This document shows, in pieces, positions 657 through 58,389 of a DNA stretch of 64,000 bases. Below the pieces are notes generated by a model. That model worked only from the letters and a program-made list of their open reading frames with translations, was not told the origin of the DNA and made no database searches. How positions within the stretch are numbered: position 1 is the stretch's first letter; each line of letters opens with the position of its first letter. The position numbers and the translations under genes are program-made. The stretch is taken from positions 16,477,965 through 16,541,964 of the forward strand of contig NC_134514.1 of NCBI RefSeq assembly GCF_027942865.1. Reading direction: 5' to 3'. The stretch comes from Odontesthes bonariensis. Lineage: Eukaryota; Chordata; Actinopteri; Atheriniformes; Atherinopsidae.

Positions 657-2747
657 TTAGATGTTTGGATGGCATCCAGATGTGTGAAGAAGAGGTGGAT
701 GAAAGAGGGGTGGTGGTGTAGGGCGGTGTCGGCGGGGATGAGGGCTTCCTTGAGGAGAAACATCGTTGTCGGAGGACAGGTAGACTTCTGAATGTCCTCC
801 AGCGATCTGTGTTTGAAACCTGAAACAAGAAACATCAGAAAATTGCAGGTTGTTTAGTTATTTAATGTAACCACCAGAGGGCGCTGTAAATTCACCTCGT
901 AAGGTGTGCAGCAGAAAGTTCAATTTGATCAGCATCCTCAAATAAAACCATATCTTCTTAAAGCACTTTAAGTAAACAACCATAACATTACAGTTTAACC
1001 TATTCTTTTTAACTTATTTCTAACATGAATCTGAAATGTTTTGGCTTTCTTGTAAATGCTTATGCAGCTGTAAAACTATTTGGTGCAATGCCAAGAAAAT
1101 CATAAGCATCTCGGTGGTACTTAGTGGTCACATCGTGTAACTCTAATAGTGTGTTTGGATTTCTCTTTTTTCTTTAGGTGAAAGTTAATTATAGAAAACC
1201 CACTAACCTTTGGGTTCTTTTAATTTAAATTTAAATTTATATTGATTTTATTGTCTGTTAGCTGATAAGATGTAGGTCCCGTCACCAGGCATTGATGGCC
1301 AAAGGTGAATTTAAAGCCAAAGGTCAGCCTGCTCACCGTGTATCCCTCCGCGTCCTGTGCGAGTCGTGCCTTAACTCCTGTTTTCAAACACTGTATCATC
1401 ATTATTGATGGTAAAATTACTCTTTTCATACATAAGAGGTTATGACATGATTAAAATTCAACGGTCCCTTTAGAAGGCGACCCGCTGTGTCCCGTCTGAC
1501 CTGGTGACGTCCGTGACGCGCGCTCTCTGCCGGCGGTTCTTGAACCAGTTGCTGACCTGGGTGGCTGTGAGGCCGGTGGCCTCTGCCAGCTCCCGCTTCT
1601 CCTGGGTGGAAGGATAAGGCTGACGATGGTACCACTCCTTGAGTATACTCCTGGATTTCTCCTGTTTAGAAATTTGATATCTTAAGTGAAGTCAGACTTT
1701 AAAACCGTTTAAATCACTCTCAAAACTCACAGAAAAACTAAAGGTTTAGGCTGTGCTGTTTATTTTATTTAACCAGGTGTTGCAATTAAACACTTTGTCC
1801 CTCAGGAATATGTTTAATCTGTTAGTGTCTGCAGGCCACAAGAAGGAGAAGGTGTACTCTTTGTTTGGCCTTAAAATAATTAATCTCTTCTCAGGTGAAA
1901 CCTAATTAGGTGGAGCATATTTGGTCATTTGTTTTTTTCCGGTTGCTAGTTCTGAAAACACTATAGAGGTACTCTGCTTTTTAATCACTGTTGTGCCTTT
2001 CACAGTTGTAGAAAAAGTCAGACACTGAATGAAAGATTGTTATGCAAAAAGGACATGTAGTTTAAAAGAAGACTGGGGTGAAAGTAGAACAACAGGTCAA
2101 GGATCAGTTAACTTACAATTGTTGTCTATTTTTGCAGAAATTGTCATATTTCAAAGGAAGATACTGAGATTTTATTCTGAAATCTGAGCCTGTAAAGTAT
2201 TTAATATCAGGTGAGCTGTCAGAAAAAAATGTCTTAACAGTGAGAGAAAAAAAAAAAAAAGGCAAATAGACATAAGGGTAAGTTCTAAGAAACTGCATTT
2301 ACATTTTTTGAAAAGTTACTGTTTGGGAACAGATTTAATGTAAGATTTGCCAACCTTGAAGCAGTAGCTGGTCTCCTCTCCATCCCAAATGGTGTGGGGC
2401 AGAGGAAACTTTCTCCTCACACGATACTTCCCCACAGGTCCCAGGAGCCGGCCCCTCTGCCTCTCGGCCTCCAAGTAGTGGGCTCGCAGCCAGAGTTTCT
2501 GCAGGAACGGGTGGCTGCGTGGGGAGAAGTGGAAACCCTCCAACAGGGTGTAGAGCTCAGTGAAGCGCCCCTGGTGAAAGGCCACTGCGGCTTTAGCTTT
2601 TAGCACGCTCTCCAGCTCCCCGAGGCACGAAGAGGAGGCGGAGGAAGAGGGAGGAAGAGTCCGGAGGAAGCCGGCGAGTCGATCCATGTAACCGCCCTGC
2701 AGAAGGACCTCACAAACACAAATGACCTGCTCTGCCGTGAAGATCAT
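657..2747 (-). CDS. six9: Six1/2-class homeobox transcription factor (best guess Six9), three exons
   Basis: Exons read on the minus strand are 2747-2355, 1661-1501 and 819-657, giving about 238 residues. Six proteins are nuclear DNA-binding regulators of placode, muscle and sensory development that act with Eya and Groucho partners. The SIX domain fills roughly residues 3-115 and the homeodomain about 118-178, with the Six-type WFKNRRQR helix. The stretches [23 protein letters not shown] and [12 protein letters not shown] match the Six1/2 class rather than Six4/5. The start at 2747 matches where Six1/2 proteins begin, and GCG precedes the ATG. Exon 2 also runs open to a stop at 1470, but a donor at 1501 joins in phase to exon 3, which encodes a Ser/Pro-rich tail ([13 protein letters not shown]) resembling Six2 tails. 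Two AATAAA signals on this strand (596-606) lie just past the stop. The class is firm; the name six9 and the third exon are inferred. Confidence 0.8.
871..886. promoter_or_regulatory. CTCF-like motif in six9-like intron 2
   Basis: The sequence CCACCAGAGGGCGCTG closely fits the vertebrate CTCF core motif. It lies in the second intron of the Six1/2-class gene, near the convergent ends of two genes. Binding is not shown by sequence alone. Confidence 0.4.
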
Positions 2748-5700
2748 CGCTGTGGCGGCAGGACGGATGTCCAGAGAGTCCTGAGACGCTAGTGTGAGTG
2801 TGGAAATGCCTCCTAACAGCTTCTTTGAAGTCTGGAGAGGTGAGAACTGGAGCCTCTGTGGAGCATTATGGATGAACAAGAACAAGATGAACCTGCATGT
2901 GTGTTTAGTATTACTCATCATCATACCTTGGCACATGTAACCTGAGATCATCAGGGCTGTAATAACACACCATGCATCCTCCTTCTCTTGTACAAACACA
3001 TGCTTGAACACCTTTACACACATATTAAAGCTTTGTTGTTGTACTAACAAGGGGATGTGCATGAATGCTGGAAGAGAATGCATTTGAATAAAATTTTCAT
3101 GCCAAATTAGAGGCAAAAATCCTCTGACAAATATTTTTAGTGCGGGGAATGATCCCCAGTTCAGAAACACGCTGCGACGACGGGAGACAATGAGCCTTTT
3201 TTTTTTTCTGTAAATGTAGTTTATTATAATATCATGTAATATAAAAAATAGAATGCATTTGAGTACAAAAATGAGAAAACATGAACCTTGATTGACAGAC
3301 ACAAATGATCCCTTTCAAAGCCATTTAAAAATTCAATCAACATGCAAAGTCTTTGGTTAAGTCTGAAGACGTGTATACCATGTGTGAGGTGGGAGAGTTA
3401 AAACCAATCTCAGGCTACAAAATAATATATTGCAACAAATTAAAACCCTTTGCAGGCTTTAATGTTAACATGCTTTGGTAAGGAATGAGGACACACCACC
3501 CTATTACCCCAAATTAATCGACAAAATTCAGGCAAACATTGATTTGTCGAAACATTAAATGATCCAACCCGAGGCCAGAGGGAACCAATGAATTAAAAGC
3601 TTATTAAAGCGGAAGTCGGCAACTTTTTTTTAGTCATATTAGCTTGAACTGTCATGGGATTCTGGAAGTAGAATATTAAATAGGCTGTTTAGGAAAAATA
3701 ACGAAATCTGTAGCTCCCTCTGAAGCCTGTAATCATGCTTGCAAAAACCGAGCGCTCCCGGCTGTTTTTAACCAATCAAGTTAGGGTGGAGGAATCCTAC
3801 CTGTCAATCACAGCTTGTGCACACGCTGCTGAGCGTGAGTCTGCCCCAGCTTGTGTGCGCTCACACTGGTGTGAACTCACGTGCACAACCTCGTCCACAG
3901 AGGGGGAGGGGTTTGGGGGGCGATTCGGAGCTTGTTAGAGGTTGGGGGAGGGACCTGAAAGTTGTGTCAGTTCGAATTTTCCGACTTTAGACTCGCAATT
4001 TTGAAAACCTGCCGACTGCAGCTTTAACAGGGCTTGACCTCTTTCAACATTAATGACCTTAAAACTGGTTAATACCTGTAGTCTGAGACTGTATAAACTC
4101 GGGTTGCATAATAATATGACCTTCCCAGTCAACATTAGTATAATTTCCTATTTGCGTTCTTTCGACAAGGACTCATTTTCGTTCACTTAAAAGTAGAAAC
4201 TGATTGGTACATGCTTTAAATAGATTAAATGTACAAAAAAAAGACACACAAACAAAAAAAACAAAAAAAAAAAACAGGCCATCCTTGTAACTAGATGCGA
4301 CACTGAAGTGTATATTTGTGTACCATAAATGGCCAAAGGTTTAACCGCTACCTGTGCCACGACGGCGTATCGCTCGTACGATTTAGGGGTCTGTCTAGAC
4401 GAGACAGATACGAGTCCGACCGCGGCCGTAACCACATGGCAGCGCAGCGTAAACATGGTGTGAATGAAATGTGCAAAATATACAAACAGACAAGATCAAG
4501 CAATCACTACGCAACCAACGGTGTCACATTGTGTTTCACTGACGACGAATCCGATACAGAAATGTGGTGTTCCAATAAAAACAAAAAGGGTCCATATGAA
4601 GGGAGTCCAGAAATGGCTACATAGAAACGATAAAATAGTGAAAATAAAACAACAAAAGTTTGACCCCCCCCCCCCCACACACAAACAAACATCAAACACG
4701 AAAGGTTTAAAATAAGGCACTTATCAGTATTAATATACTGAGATTTTGTCTGCATTTGACAAGAAAAATCACTTTTGTGGGATCACAGCTACTGTTTTAG
4801 TGTAACGCACTGCCATGCTTCATGTCATCTCCCAAGTATCCTGGCTTTTTGTCTCGGCCATTGTGCGACATAGTGTCCTATAAAGAGCTAAACGCGCATT
4901 GCATAGAGTTTTAAACCTCTCAATAACCCTTTTTAATTCCTGTATTCTGCTTTTTTTGCCAATATAGGGCCGCACCCCTCCTTAAAAACCGGAGGAAGTC
5001 GTTAGCGATTTACCACTGAATGCAGTAAGCCTGCACGTTTCAAGCCAGACTCAGTAACTCACTCGGAATAATAAAATACTGCTGCATAGCCCTCGAAGCT
5101 ATGGTGAAAAAGTTTCACATATAGATCAACCTACTTCACTTCAGGTTATGAAGACGATCATCTTCACTGTGTTTCTGGAGTGTTGGAAGAGTAACACATT
5201 CAGATGTTTGGAGGAAAAGAAAACTGAACGGCTGAATATACTGAGTTCTGGCAGAAAGATTAGTTTCAGATGTGTCCCCTTTTGCCAGATTGTCTCATCG
5301 TTGTGGCGGATCCACAATGGGCTACTTCATCTGCCAGCGAAAACTCCAGACAGAGTCCGGCTGAATTTGGCCTGCTTTTCCTCCGAATTACGAAGAAAGA
5401 GCTGAAATGACACCAGAAGCTCTACGCGGGCCAAGCAGACTAATCCATGTTGTCTCTTCTGTCTGGATCTGATAAAATGAAGGCACGAAATGTTTTGGGT
5501 AGAAACCTCAGAGATGCAACATTCCCTCCTAGACACCCAGAGGAAGAATTTTAAGTTGAAGCAGCAGGTCTGTATCCCATGTAAAAGCCACCCATTCATG
5601 TAAAATAGAGCTGCAGAGGACTTTTCTTAAAAGTGCCAGCCAGCACCACGACAGCACTGGAGGATTGACAATCGGATCATTAAAAGAAACAAGAGCGTCT

Positions 5701-5749
5701 AGTGTATTTTTGTTTTTAGACACGGTCACCAGCACCGTCTGTAAACAGA
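2748..5749. other. intergenic region between six9-like and six5
   Basis: This 3-kb stretch lies upstream of the six9-like gene and downstream of six5, both on the minus strand. It holds the six9-like promoter region, one TTAA-flanked miniature transposon (3604-4027) and probably the six5 3' untranslated region toward the right. Short open frames here (for example 4316-4624 plus) have no recognisable domain and lie in biased, A-rich sequence, so no gene is called. Confidence 0.5.
3604..4027. mobile_element. TTAA-flanked miniature inverted-repeat transposon (MITE)
   Basis: A 424-base element is bounded by TTAA at both ends. Just inside are imperfect 13-base inverted repeats, AGCGGAAGTCGGC at the left and the complement of AGCTGCAGTCGGC at the right. 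It has no transposase. TTAA target duplication suggests mobilisation by a piggyBac- or Kolobok-type enzyme. The family name is not known to me. Confidence 0.55.
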
Positions 5750-8700
5750 CTACAAGCCCAGCTCTTCATCCACAGGGACAGACTGGAGCTGAGTGAGGAT
5801 TTTAGAGTCACCATCCATTTCCTCTGGGTTCCCCAGTGGTGAGCCGGCTTCCTCATCCTGCTCTGGGGAGGGACTTCCCAGGAGCAGCGACTCACCTCCA
5901 GGTAGGCCCAACAAAGCCGGATCTACAGGCAGGTCCCCCTTGCTGCGGACATCAAACAGAGTTAGACTGGCTGAAGTGGAAAGGGGTACAGGGCTCCACG
6001 CTGGCTGGGACAACTGGATGCTTGGTGCCACTCCACTGTACATGGGACTGAGGGTGAGCATGCTCTCTGGAGTGAGCGTGCTCAGTGTTGTCGGAGTTGC
6101 TGACTGATCCAGGGTGTGAGGAGAAGGGACAGCAGGCGCCTGGCTGTTTGTGATCGCAGTCTCTGGAGCACAATACAGTGGGGACGAGTTGATGAAATTC
6201 AAAGGAGATGTCGTGAGGCCTCCAGAGGTTATGCCCGAGATCTGGGACGCCACAGGAGGGGTGGAGGGGTTAAGAGCTGGAGCCACTCCGTTTGTAGAGA
6301 TGGGTGAAGCATCTGGGACTGGTTTCAGGGGCATGCTGGTGAGCTGAATGCCTGCTGGGATGGTCAGAATCAGCTTCCCTTGCTGCACACTCAGATAAGG
6401 GCTTCCACCGAGGAGGAGGTTGCCTACAGTGGGGAATCATAAAAAAAGGACAGCAGTCAAGACTTTGCTTCATGTGCATTTTTCATTTTGGTGTTAGAGA
6501 CTAAATCAATCGTTTGACAGAAACCGGAACTTCTGTAAGTTCAATAATCTGTTCATAAGTGAAAATGGTGAATATTATTTTATCACTCATCCGTTTCTTT
6601 TTCTCTTAATCTCTGTGTCTTATATGATGGTATGTCTTTAAAGGGATAGTTCGCCTCTTTTGACATGAAGCTGTATGACATCCCATATTAGCAACATCAT
6701 TTATGAACATTGACATACCCCCTGCTGCGTCCTGTGAGCCGAGTTCCAGCCGAGTTTTGGTGTTGACGAAGGTAGTCCGGCTAGTTGGCTGGGGACACAA
6801 AAATAAAACGTCTTGCTTCTCAAAACAATATGCATTCAAAAGAGTAATACATTTGCATCACAAAATCGTTGTCCAGGAAAAAGTCAGACCTCACATCGCT
6901 TGGCGCTATTTTTGCCTCCCTTGATATCAATGCGTACAGCCACCTAGCGATAGCCGCACATGTTATGGTGTTTGCTGCTTGGAAGCAGGGGACTGCTCGG
7001 TCTGCACAGTTTACATTGGATGTATTGATATCAAGGGAGGCAAAAATAGCGCCAAGCGATGTGAGGTCTGACTTTTTCCTGGACAACGATTTTGTGATGC
7101 AAATGCATTACTCTTTTGAACGCATATTGTTTTGAGAGGCAAGACGCTTTATTTTTGTGCCCCCAGCCAACTAGCCGGACTACCTTCGTCAACTCCAAAA
7201 CGAGGCTGGAACTCGGCTCACAGGACGCAGCGGGGGGTAAGTCAATGTTCATAAATGATGTTGCTAATATGGGATGTCATACAGCTTCATGTCGAAAGAG
7301 GCGAACTATCCCTTTAATGCCAGCTTTTTTCTGACATTTTTTTCAAACGCATTTCATTTGTCCTAAAAAGAAAACAATAAAATCACATGTGAGAAGCTGT
7401 AAGTGGTGCATTTTCTCTTCAAAAATTCCTAAAAATCGCCTGATAAGTTATATAAGGTTGCCAGTTAATTTTCCTTTTGTCGCCTAATCTTTTATTCTCT
7501 GCAAACATGTCATGAAAAGAGGGTACCTGGAGGAGCGGAGGGTAGCTGAATGATCCCAGAGTTTAGGAGCTGCACCGCAGGGGCCACACTGGTTGGGGCG
7601 CCCACACTCTGAATGGGCCTCAGCTGGTTTATCCTGAGAGGGCTCTGTGTGACACCCCCACCTGCCGCAGCTGAGGTCAGGATCTGCAGGGGCACCCCTG
7701 CAGAGGGGATGGAGAGAGAAGGGCTGGCAGGCACCACTTGGGGGAAAGATATAGTGGAGGAAGTTTGGATGGAGGAGACTGGGACCAGCTGAGGCATGGA
7801 GAGCGGGACTAACTGTGCCGGGGAGCAGCCTTTGGCCTGAGGAACTGGGACGACTTGTGTTGGGGAAGATATGGAAATAACCTGTGGAGCCTGCATTTTG
7901 CTGGGAGTAGAGTTTGTGGTTTGCTCCCCCAGCTGGTGCATCGGTGGCTGTGGGAGGTGACTGTTGTTAAGCTGTGAGATGGAAACGATGGTCGTGGCAC
8001 ATTCAGACATAGTCGTTGAAGCATCTTGCTGCTGTGGGGCCAGCCTGCTGCCTGTGCTCAGAGTCTGGGGACTTTGGAAGTGAGAAGCCAGCGAGGTGAG
8101 GGGGGATACTGGGACAAGCTGAGGACACTGGGATGCTTGTGTGCCTGGAGGGGGCTGGACTAGGTGGGACACCGGTGTACCCTGGATGGAGGGCACAACC
8201 TGGGGTAAAGAGATGACCTGAGGGGTGGAGTTGGTGGAGGAAACCGCGGAGTTGGAGGGGTTCAACTGGGAGGCAGAAGTGGCGCTCACATATGTCGTGT
8301 GTTGACTGGAGAGAGGCACTGCAGAACTGGAAATAATCATACCTGCAGATGACAGAGAGGCTGGGAGGCTGAGGGCCCCTTGATGTTGGGGGTTTTGTGT
8401 TAAGACTAATGAAGGGAGACTAGTTGGTGAGGACAGAGTCGGTGAAGAGGGGGATACAGATGAAGAGGAGGGGGATACTATCTGACTACCGCCCTCCGAT
8501 TTAGGGACGATGATGAAATCCATGTCATTGCTGCTCTCTCTTTTACTTTGCTGGGAAGGACAAATGATAGTGGAAGGATGTGAAACTGACATGGTGTTAG
8601 TGCTCAGAACAACTGGCTTGGTCTCCACAGCTGAGACTTCCTGTTCTGACCTGGACACTGCTTGCTGCGGCACACCGATCCCAGGTTTGGTTATTACCTG

Positions 8701-11569
8701 AGCCCCATTCAAGATTAAAGAAGAGTTGGTTGCAACAGGACTCAGAGTGACAGTCTGGCAATCACTTAAGCTGAGCCCGTTAATTATGACACCAGCGCCA
8801 GTGCTGGAGATGAGCGAATTCCCGTTGAGGAGTAATGGCTGAGAGGCCGCGAGGAAGCCACTGGACCCGTTGAGGATGAGCTGGCCTCCTGGGTTACAAG
8901 GGACTGCAGAGACGGAGATGATGGAAGCCGTGGAGCCGGCAGCCTCTTCTGGTTTGTCAGGGGAGTCATCCATCGCACTCGCTTCATCCTCAGTGCTGTG
9001 GTTCCCGTCAGACTCACTGAAATCAGAGGAATAAGTTACAGGAAGGGAAAAGCACTCGCAGAGTTTGATTCCATTTATATCATTGGATGCGGGGTTTCTT
9101 TTCTAATTCCATAAAAGAGTCTGAGAGTAAATCTGTGCACCGAGAATATTCAGAGGTGAGCGTAGCACAAGTGGATCAATACTTCTGAAAGAAATCTCAA
9201 CCAATTAGTATTTCATCTGACAAGTATTGGTTCATCTGACAGTTACCATCTTCAACCTTCAACCAATCGTCTGTCAAATAATTAAAAAAAACAACAACAA
9301 ACGTGGTCATTCGTGAAACACATTTCTGAAAAGCTAATAAGCAACAGGCGGCCATTTTCTTTTTTCAACTCCTTTTAAAGACACAGATTGTATATAAAAA
9401 GTGGATGTAGCTGCCTGCTGGTAACCACAAAAATATGTTATTTTCAATTCTGTCATTTCCTTGAAAAGAGCCATCACCTTACTGGACTAGTGGACTAAAA
9501 GCATGTGATTACGTCCATCTTTTACATACAGTTTGTGCTCTCGAATCGGCCAATGAGCAGCTGACAATAGCTTATAGTTTTCTTTAAAACTAAACATGTA
9601 AATACGTTTTAACAGCTGTTCAAGTTTGAGAAATTAGATATTACTGTTTTGTCATTTCTAGGAGGTGCAAGAGTACCTAAATTCACATCATCACCGGGCT
9701 TTGATCTTTTTAAAATGAGCAGGGATATCAACGTATGCAGGAAGATCGGGGGAGTGATGGCAAAGGTCCAGGCAGCCTGGTATCAAACCAGTGTCTTGGA
9801 GGCATTTCCTTCCCTGAGGTATGTGGCCTGACCACTCTGTTATCAGGTCGTAATTTTGTATCTCCTCAAAGGAAACCTCGCGCCAAAAACGCAGGTCCTG
9901 CAAGAAGCAAAGACTCATTCCTAAATGTCCTTTCTGGAGTACATTCACAGTTATTTTTTGGTATGTTGAAGTGTGTTGCAACCAAAAATTATGTTGATGA
10001 TATTTCTAGAATAAAGAAAAAACACACTTCTGTGGTCTGAAGAATGACTAAAACAAGTGGAACAACTTCTGAACATCTGTCTTTCACAAAAGCAACACCG
10101 GGATCATTTAAACAATTACCACAGTTTCACAGCTTAGTGTGAATACGTTGACTTTCTAAACAGATTCACCTTCTTTGTTTTTAAATATGTATATATATAT
10201 ATATATATCCTGGCAACACCCTTTCCATCCACATAATAAAGATAAAGCTGAAGCAGATCCCTAGAAACTCTTTTAGGGCCTCCATCTGGTTAATATGTTG
10301 GCGTTTACCACCCAGGTCATCCTACAGATTGGCTGGCAGACCACCACAAACCCTGAGGGGGGATAAGATAAGTCTTCAATGCTCTGTCTTATCTTCTCAC
10401 AAACAGCCTCCCCCTGTTAGGCGAGATGGTCATTTAAACCCAGTGATTTCTGCCTGAGCATCTCGGCACCCCCCCACGACTCCCTGTAAAGCTCTTTATC
10501 ATAACCTCTGTCGCCCTGGCTCTGCAAGCAGCAGTGGATGGGTTCATGAAACTTGAGCCACTCTGGGCCCTCTGGATCTCACATTTCACAACAAAGCAAC
10601 ATGCTGTTGGTCTCGGATGTGTGGCTTCACTGCTGTCAAAAGTCAGCTCACGTCCATCCTCTTACTTTAGGTTGTTTTCAAATCGTTTTTCTTCTTATTG
10701 GAGGTTATCTTGAGTGGCGTTTTTTCTGAGTGACCCTTGCAGTTATTAAGCAAAACATCTGCTCTCTGACAAACAATAGACAGTTCAAAGCAGCTGCAGC
10801 GGGTTATAACTTTTGAATTACACTATTGTGTGTGCACAAAGGCCACCCTGTTGCACTGTGTTTGCGGTGCGGTTGGTTCTTGCCTTTTACTGTGGGTCCC
10901 GGACGGGGTCCTGTCCCTCTGCCTGCGGTTCTTGAACCAGTTGCTGACCTGTGTGAGGGACAGCCCGGTGACTTTGGCCAGGTTTTTCTTCTCGTCCGGA
11001 GTGGGGTACCTGTTGCTCTTGTAGCATTCCTTCAAAGCATTGCGGGATTTCTCTTTGAAGCAGTACACTGTCTCCTCTCCGTCCCAGATGGTTTTGGGCA
11101 GGGGGAACTTTTTTCTGAGTCGGTACTTGTCCACTGCGCCCAGGCTGCGGCCCCGGGACCTCTCCGCCTCCTTGTAGCGGGCTTTAAGGTATAGGTCCTG
11201 CAGGAACCCATGGTTAGACGGGTGGAAGTCGTGGCTCTCCAGGATGGCGTAGAGCTCCTTGAATTCGTCCCGGTGGAAAGCCACCAGTGCCTGGGCCTTC
11301 AGCAGGGTCTCGTTGCCACGTAGCAGCTCGGACGAAGGAGGTATGGTGGATAGAAATCTCCACAGGCGATCCACATTGCCCGCCTGCAGAAGGGCCTCGC
11401 AGAGACATGAAACTTGGTCTGTGGAAAAGCTCAGAGCCGATTTTTGAAAACTTTGGAGTAACTGTTCCGAAACCTGGAGAGGGTCTTTGTCTTCTTTGGA
11501 CTCCGTTGCCGATGGCTCCTCTGGGCTGTTCTCAGATTGTTCTGTAGACTGTAAAGACAAGGAAGCCAT
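5750..11569 (-). CDS. six5: Six4/5-class homeobox transcription factor Six5, three exons
   Basis: Exons on the minus strand are 11569-10884, 9016-7527 and 6423-5750, encoding about 949 residues, longer than human SIX5. The SIX domain spans about residues 47-158 and the homeodomain about 160-220. [28 protein letters not shown] and [19 protein letters not shown] mark the Six4/5 class. The long Ser/Thr/Pro/Gln-rich C-terminal half is typical of the activation region of Six4/5. It keeps VQQGK and ends in [12 protein letters not shown], like the LQTVQLDEDMQDL end of SIX4. The start ATG at 11569 has A at -3 and G at +4; an in-frame upstream ATG at 11671 is less likely. Intron 1 uses a GC donor, and its boundary falls exactly where SIX4 reads TQSK-SESDGN. 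Intron 2 contains a foldback transposon. SIX5 borders DMPK in mammals and regulates muscle, eye and germline genes. SIX4 is the main alternative identity. Confidence 0.9.
6638..7317. mobile_element. Angel-like foldback DNA transposon, copy 1 (in six5 intron 2)
   Basis: A 680-base element is bounded by TTAA on both sides, with termini AGGGATAGTTCGCCTC and its complement. Its two arms, roughly 6642-6930 and 7025-7313, are nearly perfect inverted copies around a short loop, so the whole is one long hairpin. It codes for no transposase. The termini resemble the fish Angel family as I remember it; the TTAA target fits the piggyBac or Kolobok superfamily. A second copy of the same family lies at 56690-57153. 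Confidence 0.8.
9017..10883 (-). other. six5 intron 1 contents
   Basis: This intron has a GC donor at 10883-10882 and an ordinary AG acceptor before 9016. It holds an AT dinucleotide run (10185-10208) and a cluster of GATA-type sites (10361-10396). Open frames around 9649-10040 on both strands carry no recognisable domain and are not called. Confidence 0.5.
10185..10208. repeat. AT dinucleotide microsatellite
   Basis: A short run of alternating A and T lies inside six5 intron 1. Confidence 0.9.
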
Positions 11570-13570
11570 TTTCACTTTAACTTTTTTCCACCAGTAGTTC
11601 CTCCTCCCCCGTCTCTCTCTCTCTCCCTCCCTCTGCAGCACAGCACTTTCCCATCCAGCCGACCAAACCATGAAAGTGGCTGCAGGCCGCCACCGGTCAC
11701 GCCCCTTCGTTGAAAATGACTAAAAGCAACTGACAAACCTTCCGAGTCAAATACAAATATTTACACCTCAAATTATTCCGAATCAACCACGACACGGACA
11801 GCGCGTCGCCTTAGACGGCTTTGCACAAATTTGCACATAAAAACCAAGTTCCACTGCAATATTAGCAAATGACACAAACGCCCGATGACTGTGAATAATG
11901 ACACATGTTTAGATTGAGCAACAGTGCAGAAAATGCAGGCACAAATTCCGAGAACAGCCTCGGTTTTGCAGGTGTCCTGTATTTTATTTAATTTTTTTTT
12001 TTTTAGATTTATCCTGCTTTAAATGGGAGGTTTTTAACAAAAGTGCACACAAAATAGTTGAAATTGATTAGCTTATGTCCCATAAAGGGCAAAGTATATG
12101 GCAGAATTGGACCAAAAGTGCCATAAACGGTGCAATGTTGATGTTAAATGGTGTATTTATCATAAAACAGCGTTTAGAAAAGAAAAAAACACAAACATAC
12201 ATATCAGTATTTTATTTGACTTTTTAAAGCAAATGGTTTGATATTACCCCGTGTAAAAGTAGCATTGTTTCACCATGTCACCATTCCTCTGCGTCAGTAT
12301 TATCCCACACACAAAGTACACGTTTTATTGTAAAAAATCATAAAGAAAGAAAAGTGATTGGTTTGACTAAAGCATCAAATATTAGATTTTCATCCAAAAG
12401 GGGGAAACGCTTTCTGGTGCCACTTCCTTTGTTGTATGCATTCTCCCCATCTTTCTCTTTGCATGTATCTGTAAACTGAAAGTGTCTCAGTTTGGGATGA
12501 TTGAATGGAAAAGGAAATATATCATTATCATTGTTAATTATAACAGATTAAGTGCGGTTTAGGCAGTTGTTTGTAATTGGTAGAGGACACGTTTCTAATA
12601 GTCATGCAATATATGATGGATAGAAGCAGGAACCAGTGTCTTTGAGCAGTTAATAATCTTTTGAATGTCATCTCATAGGCTAGGCTTCAGGTAATCTCCA
12701 AATAAGACCTGAGTATAATATAAGTCAAGTTTAGTAAGAGTCTCTCTGTTTGTTTGGGTTAGATTTATTTGGGATTTTACTGAGTCTGAGGTGGGTTCCA
12801 AATGCAAATACTGTCCACACAAACGGACACAAAAAAGTCCAGTTCAGCAGGTTTAATTAACAACCTGCTATGCATTGGATTTGTGCTGCAGATGTCATTC
12901 AGACTTACTGAAATGAGAAGTCATTTCAGGAGATCGATAACCTTGGGTGAGTGTGCAGATCCAGAGCGGAAATCCCCATGACTTTCATCTGTGGGTGTGC
13001 AGGCCTTAACCTGAGCCTCAGAGGGGCCAGATGTGGGGCATATTCACTATCCAGATTTTTATAATATGATAGGACACCTGGAGATAAGGTTTGAATGTGA
13101 CCAGGCAGGTTTACAGACCTTCATCTTATGAACAACCATAGGAATGTAAATGTTCACTGTGGGCATGCTGGCTGAGGGCTTGTCTCACCCCCCACTCTCC
13201 TCCCTGTATGGGTGTTTGGCTGTTGCTCCTTGATTTTCGATCTTCTCTTTTCTGTCTGCAAGCTTCAGTGTATTCATTGGTCCCCAGAAATAAGGCAATG
13301 CCATGGCTTTTAATCTTGCATTTTCTGACAAGCTATGTGATTTTGATCTTTCTGCAAATTAAAAGATATCGAGAAGAATTAAGGAAATGACAGCTAATAA
13401 ATGACACCCAAATAAATGTAGTATTCACAAAAATATTTTCATATCAAAGCACATTCATTTCACATATTTATGCCAATACCATAGTGGTGAAAAACAACTT
13501 ATTGTGTTGTGGTTTAGTTTGGACTTTAGCGCCACTGTGTGGCTGTTTTAAGAGTCTCTTTCACTCCTGT
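11570..13570. other. intergenic region between six5 and tbcb promoters
   Basis: This is the shared upstream region of two divergently transcribed genes: six5 leftward and tbcb rightward. No open frame with a recognisable domain, no RNA gene and no clear transposon is visible. It probably contains the six5 5' untranslated region and promoter at its left end. Confidence 0.5.
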
Positions 13571-54300: not shown

Positions 54301-54522
54301 ATTTATTTATTTTCAATGAAAATATGTAACCAATTACAAACAAACAAGACACACACACAGTGTTCACAGAATTTCACATGATACTGTATAAAAATCTTTG
54401 GAGTAGCACCTGTTACTGTAACAAAACTAACAGACCACTTTCTAACAGCGTTTCACGAGATGTTATCTAGATCGGGTCTTCACCTTTACATCAAGGCACT
54501 GACTCTTGGTTAATACTGAGAG

Positions 54523-57500
54523 TCAGAGGAAGGTGTTCTCGATGACCAGAGTCTGAGGCTCTTCCCTTGTGTCCCCAGCGGGTGGTGTCGGGACCCTCTG
54601 GGTGTCGTCCTCCAGAAGAGCGCAGCACATACTCCCAGCACAGGCCTTCCCACAGGCAAGGCTGCAGGCGGGGAGAGGAGGCGAGGAGGGGTCCTGTCTG
54701 TGGATGATAGGGGAGGCGTCGCCTCCTCTGTCAGAAGAGGAGCCAGAACAGGAAGCAAACTCTGGCTGAACAGTGCAGCAGCTCACTCCCACGTTCTGCA
54801 GCACTTTAGTGACGCCCAACATCACATCAGCACACCTGGACAGATTTGAAATAATCATGGATTAATAAGACATCACATTTCATCCTGGCCAGAAAACACA
54901 TGAGTCTGGGATCATGTTTCTTCGTTGCATTGTCCAGCGTGACCTTGGACTGACTCTGACCTGCTGTGATGAAAGTGTCTACTGTATAACTTAAAAAAGA
55001 GGTTTGCCAGGGGTAAAACTCTCCGTGTTTTCCTGTTCAGCTGCAAGGAAGTTATCACTGGTGGACAGGACGTGACCTACAACATCACCACATTTCCACA
55101 TATGAGTCGGAGAAGCAGATAAACATCAAAACATCATATCCATATGTAATATTTGTGCAAGTGAGCCCCTGATATTATCAGTTAATGTGAAGATGAAATT
55201 AGAGGCGGGTGTTTTGAATCAATGGGAAGGAAATCTGCTGATGTTTAAGGTCATATTCATGAAGAAATATCTTATATAAAATCTTTGAATAGTTCATATA
55301 TATGAATGCAGTAATCAAAACCTGCTTAATTGTGAGAGTGAGCACTGAGTGAGCATTTGTGGGATGCGCCAATAAACACATCAGCCAACAGGATCTGTTG
55401 TCCCAAAGGTCTCATGTGCCAGACACCAGAGGACACCCCCTGAGGCCCAGTGTCACTGTCCTGGATGAGGGGGTGTACAACATGAGACAGGTGTTTCTTT
55501 TTGATGCTAATGGTAACACCGGCGCAGAGGTAAACTTCACCTGTCTACTGGAAACCCAGCGTAGCAGTGCACGTGGACAGAGGCCACTGAAAGGGATTCA
55601 GTTAACTGCCAGATGTGGAGGTCGTGCACAGCCTGTACTCCAGGCACGCTCGCTATCATCCGGCCCAGATCAGACACACAGATGTGTGGAGGGGAGGCCT
55701 GAAGCAGCAGCAGTCCGTACCTGTACACCTGCAGAGGTTTATCAGAGAGGTGAGGTGTTAAGGTGCGTTCCCAGCTGCAGACAAATATAACTAACTTTCC
55801 AAAGAATTTGAATTAAATGAGTGAAACCAACATGTAATTTAAGGTAATAGATTAGGATGATATAAAAACTAGGAGGCTGACCTGTGGCATAGTTGTGGCA
55901 ATTAGTGTAAACACAGCCAGCAGGGAGAGACCGGGATCCAGATAAACCAGGACGCTGCAGACTGCAGAGCTGTGCGGGGACTGAGGGGCGATCAGCAGCG
56001 TGACCAGGCTGTTGATCAGAGACAGGAGGGACGTAAAAAGTCCCTGAACGACGAAGACGAAGGACAGGAGGCAGACTGACCACTGGCTGCTTTGTACAGG
56101 TGTGTCAGGGAGTTGGGATGACTTGCAGACTGAGGAGATTTCAGATGTCTTTTTACTGCCTGAAACTGAAAAAAAACAAAAGATGCAGGTATTTCTGTAA
56201 TGCCTGAGTTTAATAAAAACAATATCTTTATATGAGAACTTTCTGTGGATGCCAAAGAGCTAAACTCTGCTACCAGGATGTCCCGTATAAGAACACATCT
56301 TTTGAACGACTCACACTTAAAATCAGCAGCGCAGCTCTCCTCTTTACACGACACTTCTGCTGGTTGTTGCAGAGTTTTACAGTCAGTGTCAGGGATGCTG
56401 TGGGTTCCTGGATTATGGAGGACAAGCGTCCCAGCGTGGAGAGGGTCACGTGCAGCGGACTGGACTTCTGATTGGACAGTGCTTTCAGATTCCTCCTGAC
56501 CTCTGGAGTCCTCTTCAGCCAAGGCTGTGGGAGTCGAACAGAGGAATGAAAAACAAGCAGGGCAGTTTGATCTGAAAGTCTAACAGCTGAATATACACCG
56601 AGCAGCTGCACAATCACCTGAACAGACACAGTCATTCTTCTTTTGTCAAATATTATCATAACCAAACAATTCCATGATTTCATACTAACTTAAAGGGATA
56701 GTTCGCCTCTTTTGACATGAAGCTGTATGACATCCCATATTAGCAATATCATTTATGAACATTGACTTACCCCCTGCTGCGTCCCATATCAATGCGTGCT
56801 GCCACCTGCTGACAGCCGCACCTGTTACTGTGTTTGCTGCTCGGTCTGCACTTCGGTCTGCACGGTCTACACAGCACGCAGTGATACGAAGGGAGAGAAA
56901 ATAGCGCCAAGCGATGTGAGGTCTGACTTTTTGCTGCACAACGATTTTGTGATGCAAATGTATTACTCTTTTGAACACAACGCTTTATTTTTGTGGCCCC
57001 AGCCAACTAGCCGGACTACCTTCGTCAACGGCAAAACGAGGCCGGAACTCAGCTCACAGGACGCAATGGGGGGTAAGAACATGGTCATAAATGATATTGC
57101 TAATATGGGATGTCATACAGCTTCATGTCAAAAGAGGCGAACTATCCCTTTAAAAGTTTTGTTTCATCTCAGTTCTGTTTCTGCGTTTCTCATCACGTCA
57201 AACTGTGTCTTCAAAACTGAATTTAGGCTGATTAAAGTGACGGTTTGGAGTTTGTTTTGTGGTTTAAAAGATGTGAACCTGCAGGTTTGATATGACAGCG
57301 TCTGGGGTTCATGTTTATCCGACCAACAGTGCCAACAGTGGTCTAGGTGTTTTTTTTTTTTTTAGTATTTCCATTGTTTCTCATGTGCTTTACCTTTGTG
57401 GTTCACTTCAAGGTGAGATTCAAACTCTTCTCGCCTGCTACTCTCAGCCCTCTCATCCTGCAGCTGTGCCCAGTTCAGCCCAAACACAAGCATCTTAAGG

Positions 57501-58069
57501 AGCAGGCTGACACCTCCGACCACCACCGGCAGCAGGGGGTGCTTCACTGGGTGTGGCTCCAGAATGAAGCTGATGATTTCCAAGAAGTAAGAGATGCAGA
57601 GAGAGGCCAGGAGGAGGGAGGAAATGAAAACACCCACCGCTTGGATCCTGCTGTTAGTGAAGGACAGATTGCAGTGGAAAGTTTTGGGAGAGACTGTTGG
57701 GGAGAAAAGTTTGTGTGTGTTGACCATTGTAGGTGCCTCATAGAGGGGCTGATCCAACATGGCTGACCCTCCAATGATGGTCTGGGTATCTGGTTCAGGT
57801 TGGACTGGTGAGTCTGAGCGCTTTGGGGGAAAAAATGCTGTCAAAGAGGGGAAAGCATGTGATGGAGATGCAGGGGAATACAGAGAGGAGAGCGCGGGTG
57901 TGATGACGGCCGCGTTCTGAGGAAGAGGAAGAGCCATGTGCACAAGGACGAAGAGCGTGTGGAAGCCATCAACCATGGTGATGAGGGACTTACACAGCTG
58001 ACTGATGGCAATTTCACACAACAGCAGCAGCATGGTCAGTCCCAGAATGCACCAGAGTGGCACCCTCAT
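54523..58069 (-). CDS. ZnT1-like SLC30 family membrane protein lacking most metal-site residues
   Basis: Minus-strand exons are 58069-57394, 56524-56315, 56159-55882, 55728-55541 and 54835-54523, about 554 residues. All splice phases agree and no stop interrupts the frame. SLC30A1 exports zinc across the plasma membrane. Homology is clear in TM1-2 (residues 5-50), TM3-4 (LEIISFILEPH, LLPVVVGGVSLLLKMLVFGL), TM5-6 (LINSLVTLL, VLVYLDPGLSLLAVF), the C-terminal domain (HDLHIWQLTESLSVASVHVHC, VGVSCCTVQPEFAS) and the Cys-rich tail ending IENTFL. In TM2 the HxxxD zinc motif reads HTLFV (His37, Val41). In TM5 the positions aligned with His and Asp are Phe331 and Gly335. The usual His-rich cytoplasmic loop is absent, and an extra 80-residue Ser/Pro-rich segment lies between TM2 and TM3. 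The protein may be a non-transporting partner or have altered specificity. SLC30A10 is the main alternative relative. Intron 1 holds a foldback transposon. Confidence 0.8.
56690..57153. mobile_element. Angel-like foldback DNA transposon, copy 2 (in ZnT1-like intron 1)
   Basis: A 464-base element bounded by TTAA, with the same AGGGATAGTTCGCCTC termini as the copy at 6638-7317. The shared interior includes GACATGAAGCTGTATGACAT and AGCGCCAAGCGATGTGAGG. Its left arm is shorter than its right, so this copy has lost part of the palindrome. It encodes no transposase. Confidence 0.8.
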
Positions 58070-58389
58070 ACCTACAACTGAGAGAAAAACATAACCAGAA
58101 TTATAATTGAGACAGACATTTCATTCAGAAGGAAAGAGATTGTGACAAATTCATGGAAAAACATCACAAATGGAAATACTTCCAACAGATACACTGAATA
58201 GGACAGTCAATCACATCCACATCTGACATGAATAAAAATACTGAATGGCCCAGATAATTTCATTATGACTTATTAAAATGGCTTTAGGAAAAGATTTGGA
58301 TCATTCGTTGATGAAGTAGAGGAAGCAGGAGCTTCGATCATCAACTGACATCAACATTTAGACCTATGGTGAAAACATCAGGGCTCAGG

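Follow-up and report, generated by a model that had tools for sequence, protein, structure and literature searches.

A 64,000-nucleotide stretch of the Odontesthes bonariensis genome (contig C14, positions 16477965-16541964, hereafter the window; the assembly comprises 945 Mb in 187 contigs) carries on its minus strand a five-exon gene related to SLC30A1 (ZnT1) and SLC30A10 (ZnT10), whose intact reading frame lacks the zinc transport site and retains the positions of the cytosolic sites SCD1 and SCD3 together with a match to the dimerisation domain (Table 1). Its four introns are all GT-AG, in phases 1, 1, 0 and 2, and the spliced frame encodes 556 amino acids with a single, terminal stop codon, in agreement with the initial annotation, which had described an intact gene of five exons joining in phase into about 554 residues. 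The shorter length arises because exon 3 has two acceptor sites in tandem (56165 / 56159, six bases apart, both in frame), the two resulting proteins differing by FSG or C. Going upstream from the ATG, the reading frame first meets a stop at 58123, and an AG preceded by a pyrimidine tract stands just 5' of the ATG, so that a 5' non-coding exon is possible. Further, AATAAA/ATTAAA-type signals were found about 210 nt 3' of the stop codon, at 54311 and 54307.

In human ZnT1 the zinc ligands (HD/HD site) are reported to be His43, Asp47, His251 and Asp255 (PMC11549101, PMC11633486). In transmembrane helix 2 (TM2) of the five-exon protein His37 is kept and Val41 occupies the Asp position, both as first annotated. 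The TM5 segment has diverged (4/23 residues identical under our own anchoring on QG(L/V)F) and its register is therefore uncertain; three alignments placed the ligand positions at Ser341/Leu345 (QG(L/V)F anchoring), Phe333/Gly337 and Ser322/Val326 (MAFFT), none of them with a ligand. The pair originally proposed, Phe331/Gly335, apparently corresponds to Phe333/Gly337 in the 556-residue form, a shift of two; the lack of a ligand there was confirmed, with the same uncertainty of register. Residues 324-356 contain no His, Asp or Glu and one Cys, and the MAFFT positions hold no ligand, so that the absence of the site is independent of register. An alternative exon with an intact HxxxD was also sought: a tblastn search of the complete window with Slc30a1 of the same fish, admitting E values up to 50, matched exons 1, 4 and 5 and no other TM5-like stretch. 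These sequence comparisons bear out the earlier claim that three of the four transport ligands have been lost, and support the absence of the canonical HD/HD site from an intact frame. TM5 contains small polar residues (T340, S341, S344, N347, S348 and T351), several of them three or four apart.

The predicted product probably belongs, as a divergent member, to the SLC30A1/SLC30A10 branch within the cation diffusion facilitators (CDF). A phmmer search against solved structures recovered human ZnT1 as best match (3e-23), followed by ZnT10 (9e-17) and other ZnTs from 4.2e-8 (ZnT3), and the Pfam ZT_dimer model matched over its cut-off (8.3e-7). The dimer domain is followed by a Cys tail ending in CC, with ZnT1 spacing and 6/6 clade-invariant tail positions kept in an alignment from which one ZnT10 residue was removed; drawn from three sequences, this tail may be a clade-defining trait. 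Thus, the SLC30A1-like domains of the initial annotation stand as a family match above chance with a clear dimerisation domain; the membrane part is weak, with Cation_efflux just under its cut-off (24.1 bits, cut-off 26.6) and the NCBIfam CDF superfamily model under its own (61.6 against 82.35). The gene was also absent from the 12 matches (E ≤ 0.001) of a Cation_efflux search of its own genome, and a search of solved structures with exon 3 by itself recovered no ZnT, its best hits (E 0.58 at most favorable) being unrelated proteins.

The canonical slc30a1 of the same fish (G000:C29:10769113) encodes 487 amino acids with one coding intron, HMLSD in TM2, HVLGD in TM5, a His-rich loop and a Cys-rich extracellular loop, and scores 592 bits to human ZnT1. 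About 4 kb from it lies a kinase gene, which we take to be NEK2. Such a neighbour is expected from the conserved synteny of SLC30A1 with nek2, lpgat1 and rd3 described in PMC4281218. The five-exon protein has in common with fish and human SLC30A1 the YLDP of TM6, ZT_dimer, the SCD1/SCD3 ligand positions and an identically spaced Cys tail, and differs from ZnT1 proper in the absence of the HD/HD site, the extracellular Cys-rich lasso and the His-rich TM4-TM5 loop. ZnT10, of the same clade and with a Cys tail also ending in CC, is likewise described without lasso and His-rich loop (PMC11549101); unlike the five-exon protein it carries the motifs NMLSD (TM2) and HVMGD (TM5), and it is reported as a manganese transporter (PMC11633486). 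Searching its own genome, exon 1 of the five-exon gene matched itself and slc30a1 only, indicating a single copy, and slc30a1 exon 1 matched itself, then the five-exon gene (E 0.0017, weak), then weaker matches. One of these, on contig C20 (E 0.022), was considered as a candidate slc30a10 and rejected, as its exons carry HIIAD and read like ZnT5/ZnT7, to which we presume it belongs. Neither an slc30a10 nor a further canonical slc30a1 turned up with the Cation_efflux profile or slc30a1 exon 1. So far as these searches, which scored the best candidates only, can see, the genome would have two members of the clade. The lack of slc30a10 and of a second slc30a1 is in line with Table 2 of PMC4281218, which lists one SLC30A1 and no SLC30A10 each for medaka, fugu, stickleback, Tetraodon, tilapia and cod.

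By alignment, the SCD1 and SCD3 ligand positions are kept at 4/4 and, with one E to D change, 3/4, a retention of 7/8 against 26/72, and for Q466, S471 and C514 the figure is 1/3. These putative cytosolic zinc sites, overlooked in the initial annotation, are in our opinion the strongest indication that the protein may be functional. Elsewhere the protein departs from Slc30a1: 86 unaligned residues separate TM2 from TM3 (15 in Slc30a1), the 13 residues between Pro356 and YLDP (357-369) hold one Cys and no Cys-rich lasso, and of the 126 residues of the TM4-TM5 loop 5 are His, all dispersed, as compared with 11 His, including a clustered run, in the 86-residue loop of Slc30a1. The missing run and lasso need not be losses, since among ZnTs the His-rich run is described as limited to ZnT1 and ZnT7 and the lasso to ZnT1 (PMC11549101), and since a weakly preferred quartet tree places the split of this gene before that of fish and human ZnT1.

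Whether the gene is maintained was assessed by neutral simulation (600 copies, assumed indel rate), in which the frame stayed intact in 17%, 2.8% and none of the copies at 0.01, 0.02 and 0.05 substitutions per site, respectively. Nei-Gojobori counts over 251 codons gave proportions of synonymous and nonsynonymous differences (pS and pN) of 0.65 and 0.45, a difference of 0.20 (0.11-0.30), with synonymous divergence saturated and the two branches not separable. Several observations weigh against constraint: a branch of 1.23 substitutions per site (0.09 for Slc30a1), retention of only 10/22 clade-invariant positions in TM1-2 and 12/31 in TM3-4, pN above pS in the TM5 block, and 0 relatives among the 2 pattern matches in viral contigs and 28 in genome contigs obtained with exon 1, two collections without fish in which only close relatives were sought and none was expected. 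These, together with its single copy, would fit a very recent pseudogene, or a gene decaying in this lineage only. Against such decay stand the open frame with its four canonical introns and the SCD1/SCD3 ligand retention, and any loss of constraint would need to fall within about the last 0.02 to 0.03 neutral substitutions per site; we regard decay as rather improbable. The earlier argument that an open frame implies selection holds insofar as simulated neutral copies soon lose theirs, and must be softened given the saturation and the TM5 block: on the sequence evidence, the gene is likely, though not proven, to be under constraint.

Our best reading, by analogy, is that of a ZnT6-like pseudo-transporter, its ligands missing in an intact frame. 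More precisely, we favor, at somewhat less than even chances, a divergent clade member that lacks the HD/HD site, is still built as a membrane protein and acts, through a putative zinc-binding cytosolic dimerisation domain, as the zinc-sensing partner of a transporter. Cytosolic zinc would bind SCD1 and SCD3, the protein would dimerise via its C-terminal domain, most likely with Slc30a1, and would change the activity, stability or location of Slc30a1, as is thought for ZnT6 on ZnT5; expression and proper folding are likewise inferred. ZnT6 (SLC30A6), a ZnT with missing zinc ligands that is regarded as the likely auxiliary protomer to an active ZnT (PMC7949119), serves here as a working model, and the five-exon protein may likewise pair with an active ZnT; ZnT6 belongs to another family branch, misses two ligands rather than three, and has a known partner in ZnT5. 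The same C-terminal domain and tail would also suit a non-transporting homodimer or scaffold, a membrane-anchored zinc sensor acting alone through ZnT1-type partner binding rather than on Slc30a1; Raf-1 and the L-type calcium channel beta subunit are reported as non-transport partners of ZnT1 (PMC7949119), and the two long cytosolic stretches, between TM2 and TM3 and between TM4 and TM5, could bind partners, yet we hold this to be unlikely. Least probable of all is a transporter with a re-routed path or a different substrate, moving an ion or solute without the HD/HD site: His37, Glu164 and Glu171 are kept (human H43, E99 and E106, the latter two on a proposed exit path; PMC11633486) and TM5 has its small polar residues, but TM5 and the Asp position of TM2 are devoid of acidic residues, and among four sites mutated in human ZnT1 the HD/HD site is reported to have affected transport most (PMC11633486).

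The overall role of the ZnT cytosolic domain is stated as unresolved in PMC11549101. A natural ZnT1 relative without a transport site and with cytosolic zinc sites would separate sensing from transport and allow a direct test of partner regulation by the cytosolic domain; next to ZnT6 it would be a second ligand-less ZnT, in another family branch. Ligand-less ZnTs are thus known as a kind; its occurrence in the SLC30A1/A10 clade appears new, as none from fish was described in the open-access literature searched by titles and abstract starts, which is not proof of absence.

Regarding its origin, the protein is 36.5% identical to fish ZnT1, 36.5% to human ZnT1 and 27.9% to ZnT10 over the 222 best-aligned columns. 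The preferred quartet tree (approximately unbiased test, AU, p 0.84 to 0.87) places it outside the fish-human ZnT1 pair; alternatives were not rejected (AU p 0.10 to 0.24), including the joining to fish Slc30a1 (0.10 to 0.14). A recent duplication of slc30a1 is disfavored by this identity and by four introns against one, with the quartet trees leaving room for it. Homology of the C-terminal domain introns could not be shown in a by-eye comparison with three other SLC30 loci of the same genome. The obvious comparison gene is carp SLC30A1b, and the five-exon gene could be a divergent counterpart of cyprinid slc30a1b instead of a separate ancient paralog: for carp, PMC4281218 gives 5 exons and 482 amino acids in SLC30A1b-1 and 2 exons in the SLC30A1a copies, which it marks as partial, and the gene found here has five coding exons. 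Nevertheless, zebrafish ZnT1 copies a and b (b taken by us as Slc30a1b) are given as 61/54% identical to human (PMC3944790), against 36.5% over best-aligned positions here, and zebrafish slc30a1a and slc30a1b are reported to look redundant in knock-outs (PMC8706747), not expected of a ligand-less protein; we therefore give the slc30a1b origin only a minor chance.

The neighborhood may point to another source. Pfam named 5/10 of the window open reading frames (ORFs) submitted, namely two SIX, one CLPTM1 and two Rel-domain exons, the latter presumably of RELB, and beyond the window lies a leucine-rich-repeat gene that we take to resemble PPP1R37. On the minus strand at 2316-11719, two nearby SIX1_SD genes, one of which also encodes a homeodomain within its SIX1_SD ORF, are presumably two linked SIX4/5-type genes. 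None of nek2, lpgat1 and rd3 is among the Pfam-named neighbors, with no gene-by-gene search made for these three. We take this neighborhood to match human 19q13.32, which is not known to hold an SLC30 gene; 19q13.32 and 1q, the location of SLC30A1 and SLC30A10, form part of one old paralogon, which makes an ancient ohnolog origin a lead. As a test of this paralogon, a search for KA1-domain kinases gave 8 matches, of which five were strong (one on contig C29) and one, at a distance of about 7 Mb on C14, was weaker; it was not decisive. More speculatively, and with a probability clearly below that of the zinc-sensing partner in general, fishes may have preserved a third SLC30A1/A10-type gene of ancient origin within a SIX-CLPTM1-RELB block; its product would have given up transport and kept two cytosolic zinc sites as a dedicated zinc-sensing subunit setting Slc30a1 activity.

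Table 1. Coordinates of the five-exon gene and its features in the window.
Feature	Position	Strand	Remarks
Exon 1: start codon, TM1, TM2, TM3, TM4	57394..58069	-	Donor AAAG/GTAAAG (slash, exon end)
TM2 ligand positions (exon 1)	His37 57959-57961; Val41 57947-57949	-	Val41 replaces Asp
Exon 2: TM4-TM5 cytosolic loop	56315..56524	-	Without the His-rich run of ZnT1
Exon 3: loop end, TM5, TM6	55882..56165	-	YLDP retained; acceptor 56165, alternative 56159 in frame
TM5 segment, residues 324-356	55984..56082	-	No His, Asp or Glu, hence no HxxxD in any register; coordinates from exon model
Exon 4: start of cytosolic dimerisation domain (ZT_dimer)	55541..55728	-	His425, Asp426, His428, His442, Cys445
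Exon 5: remainder of cytosolic domain, Cys tail, stop	54523..54835	-	Glu478
Cys tail, residues 510-524 (CSLACGKACAGSMCC)	54622..54666	-	Cys spacing as in ZnT1; computed coordinates, end matches tblastn

Upstream of the gene, 3 metal-response element cores occur in 3.4 kb against 1.4 expected, a number that is not notable. Intron 1 harbors an element resembling a miniature inverted-repeat transposable element (56690-57153), with 95-bp inverted terminal repeats that are 93% complementary and 274 bp between them; translated ORFs at 6820-7135 have peptide stretches in common with it, so that a related copy seems to be present elsewhere in the window.
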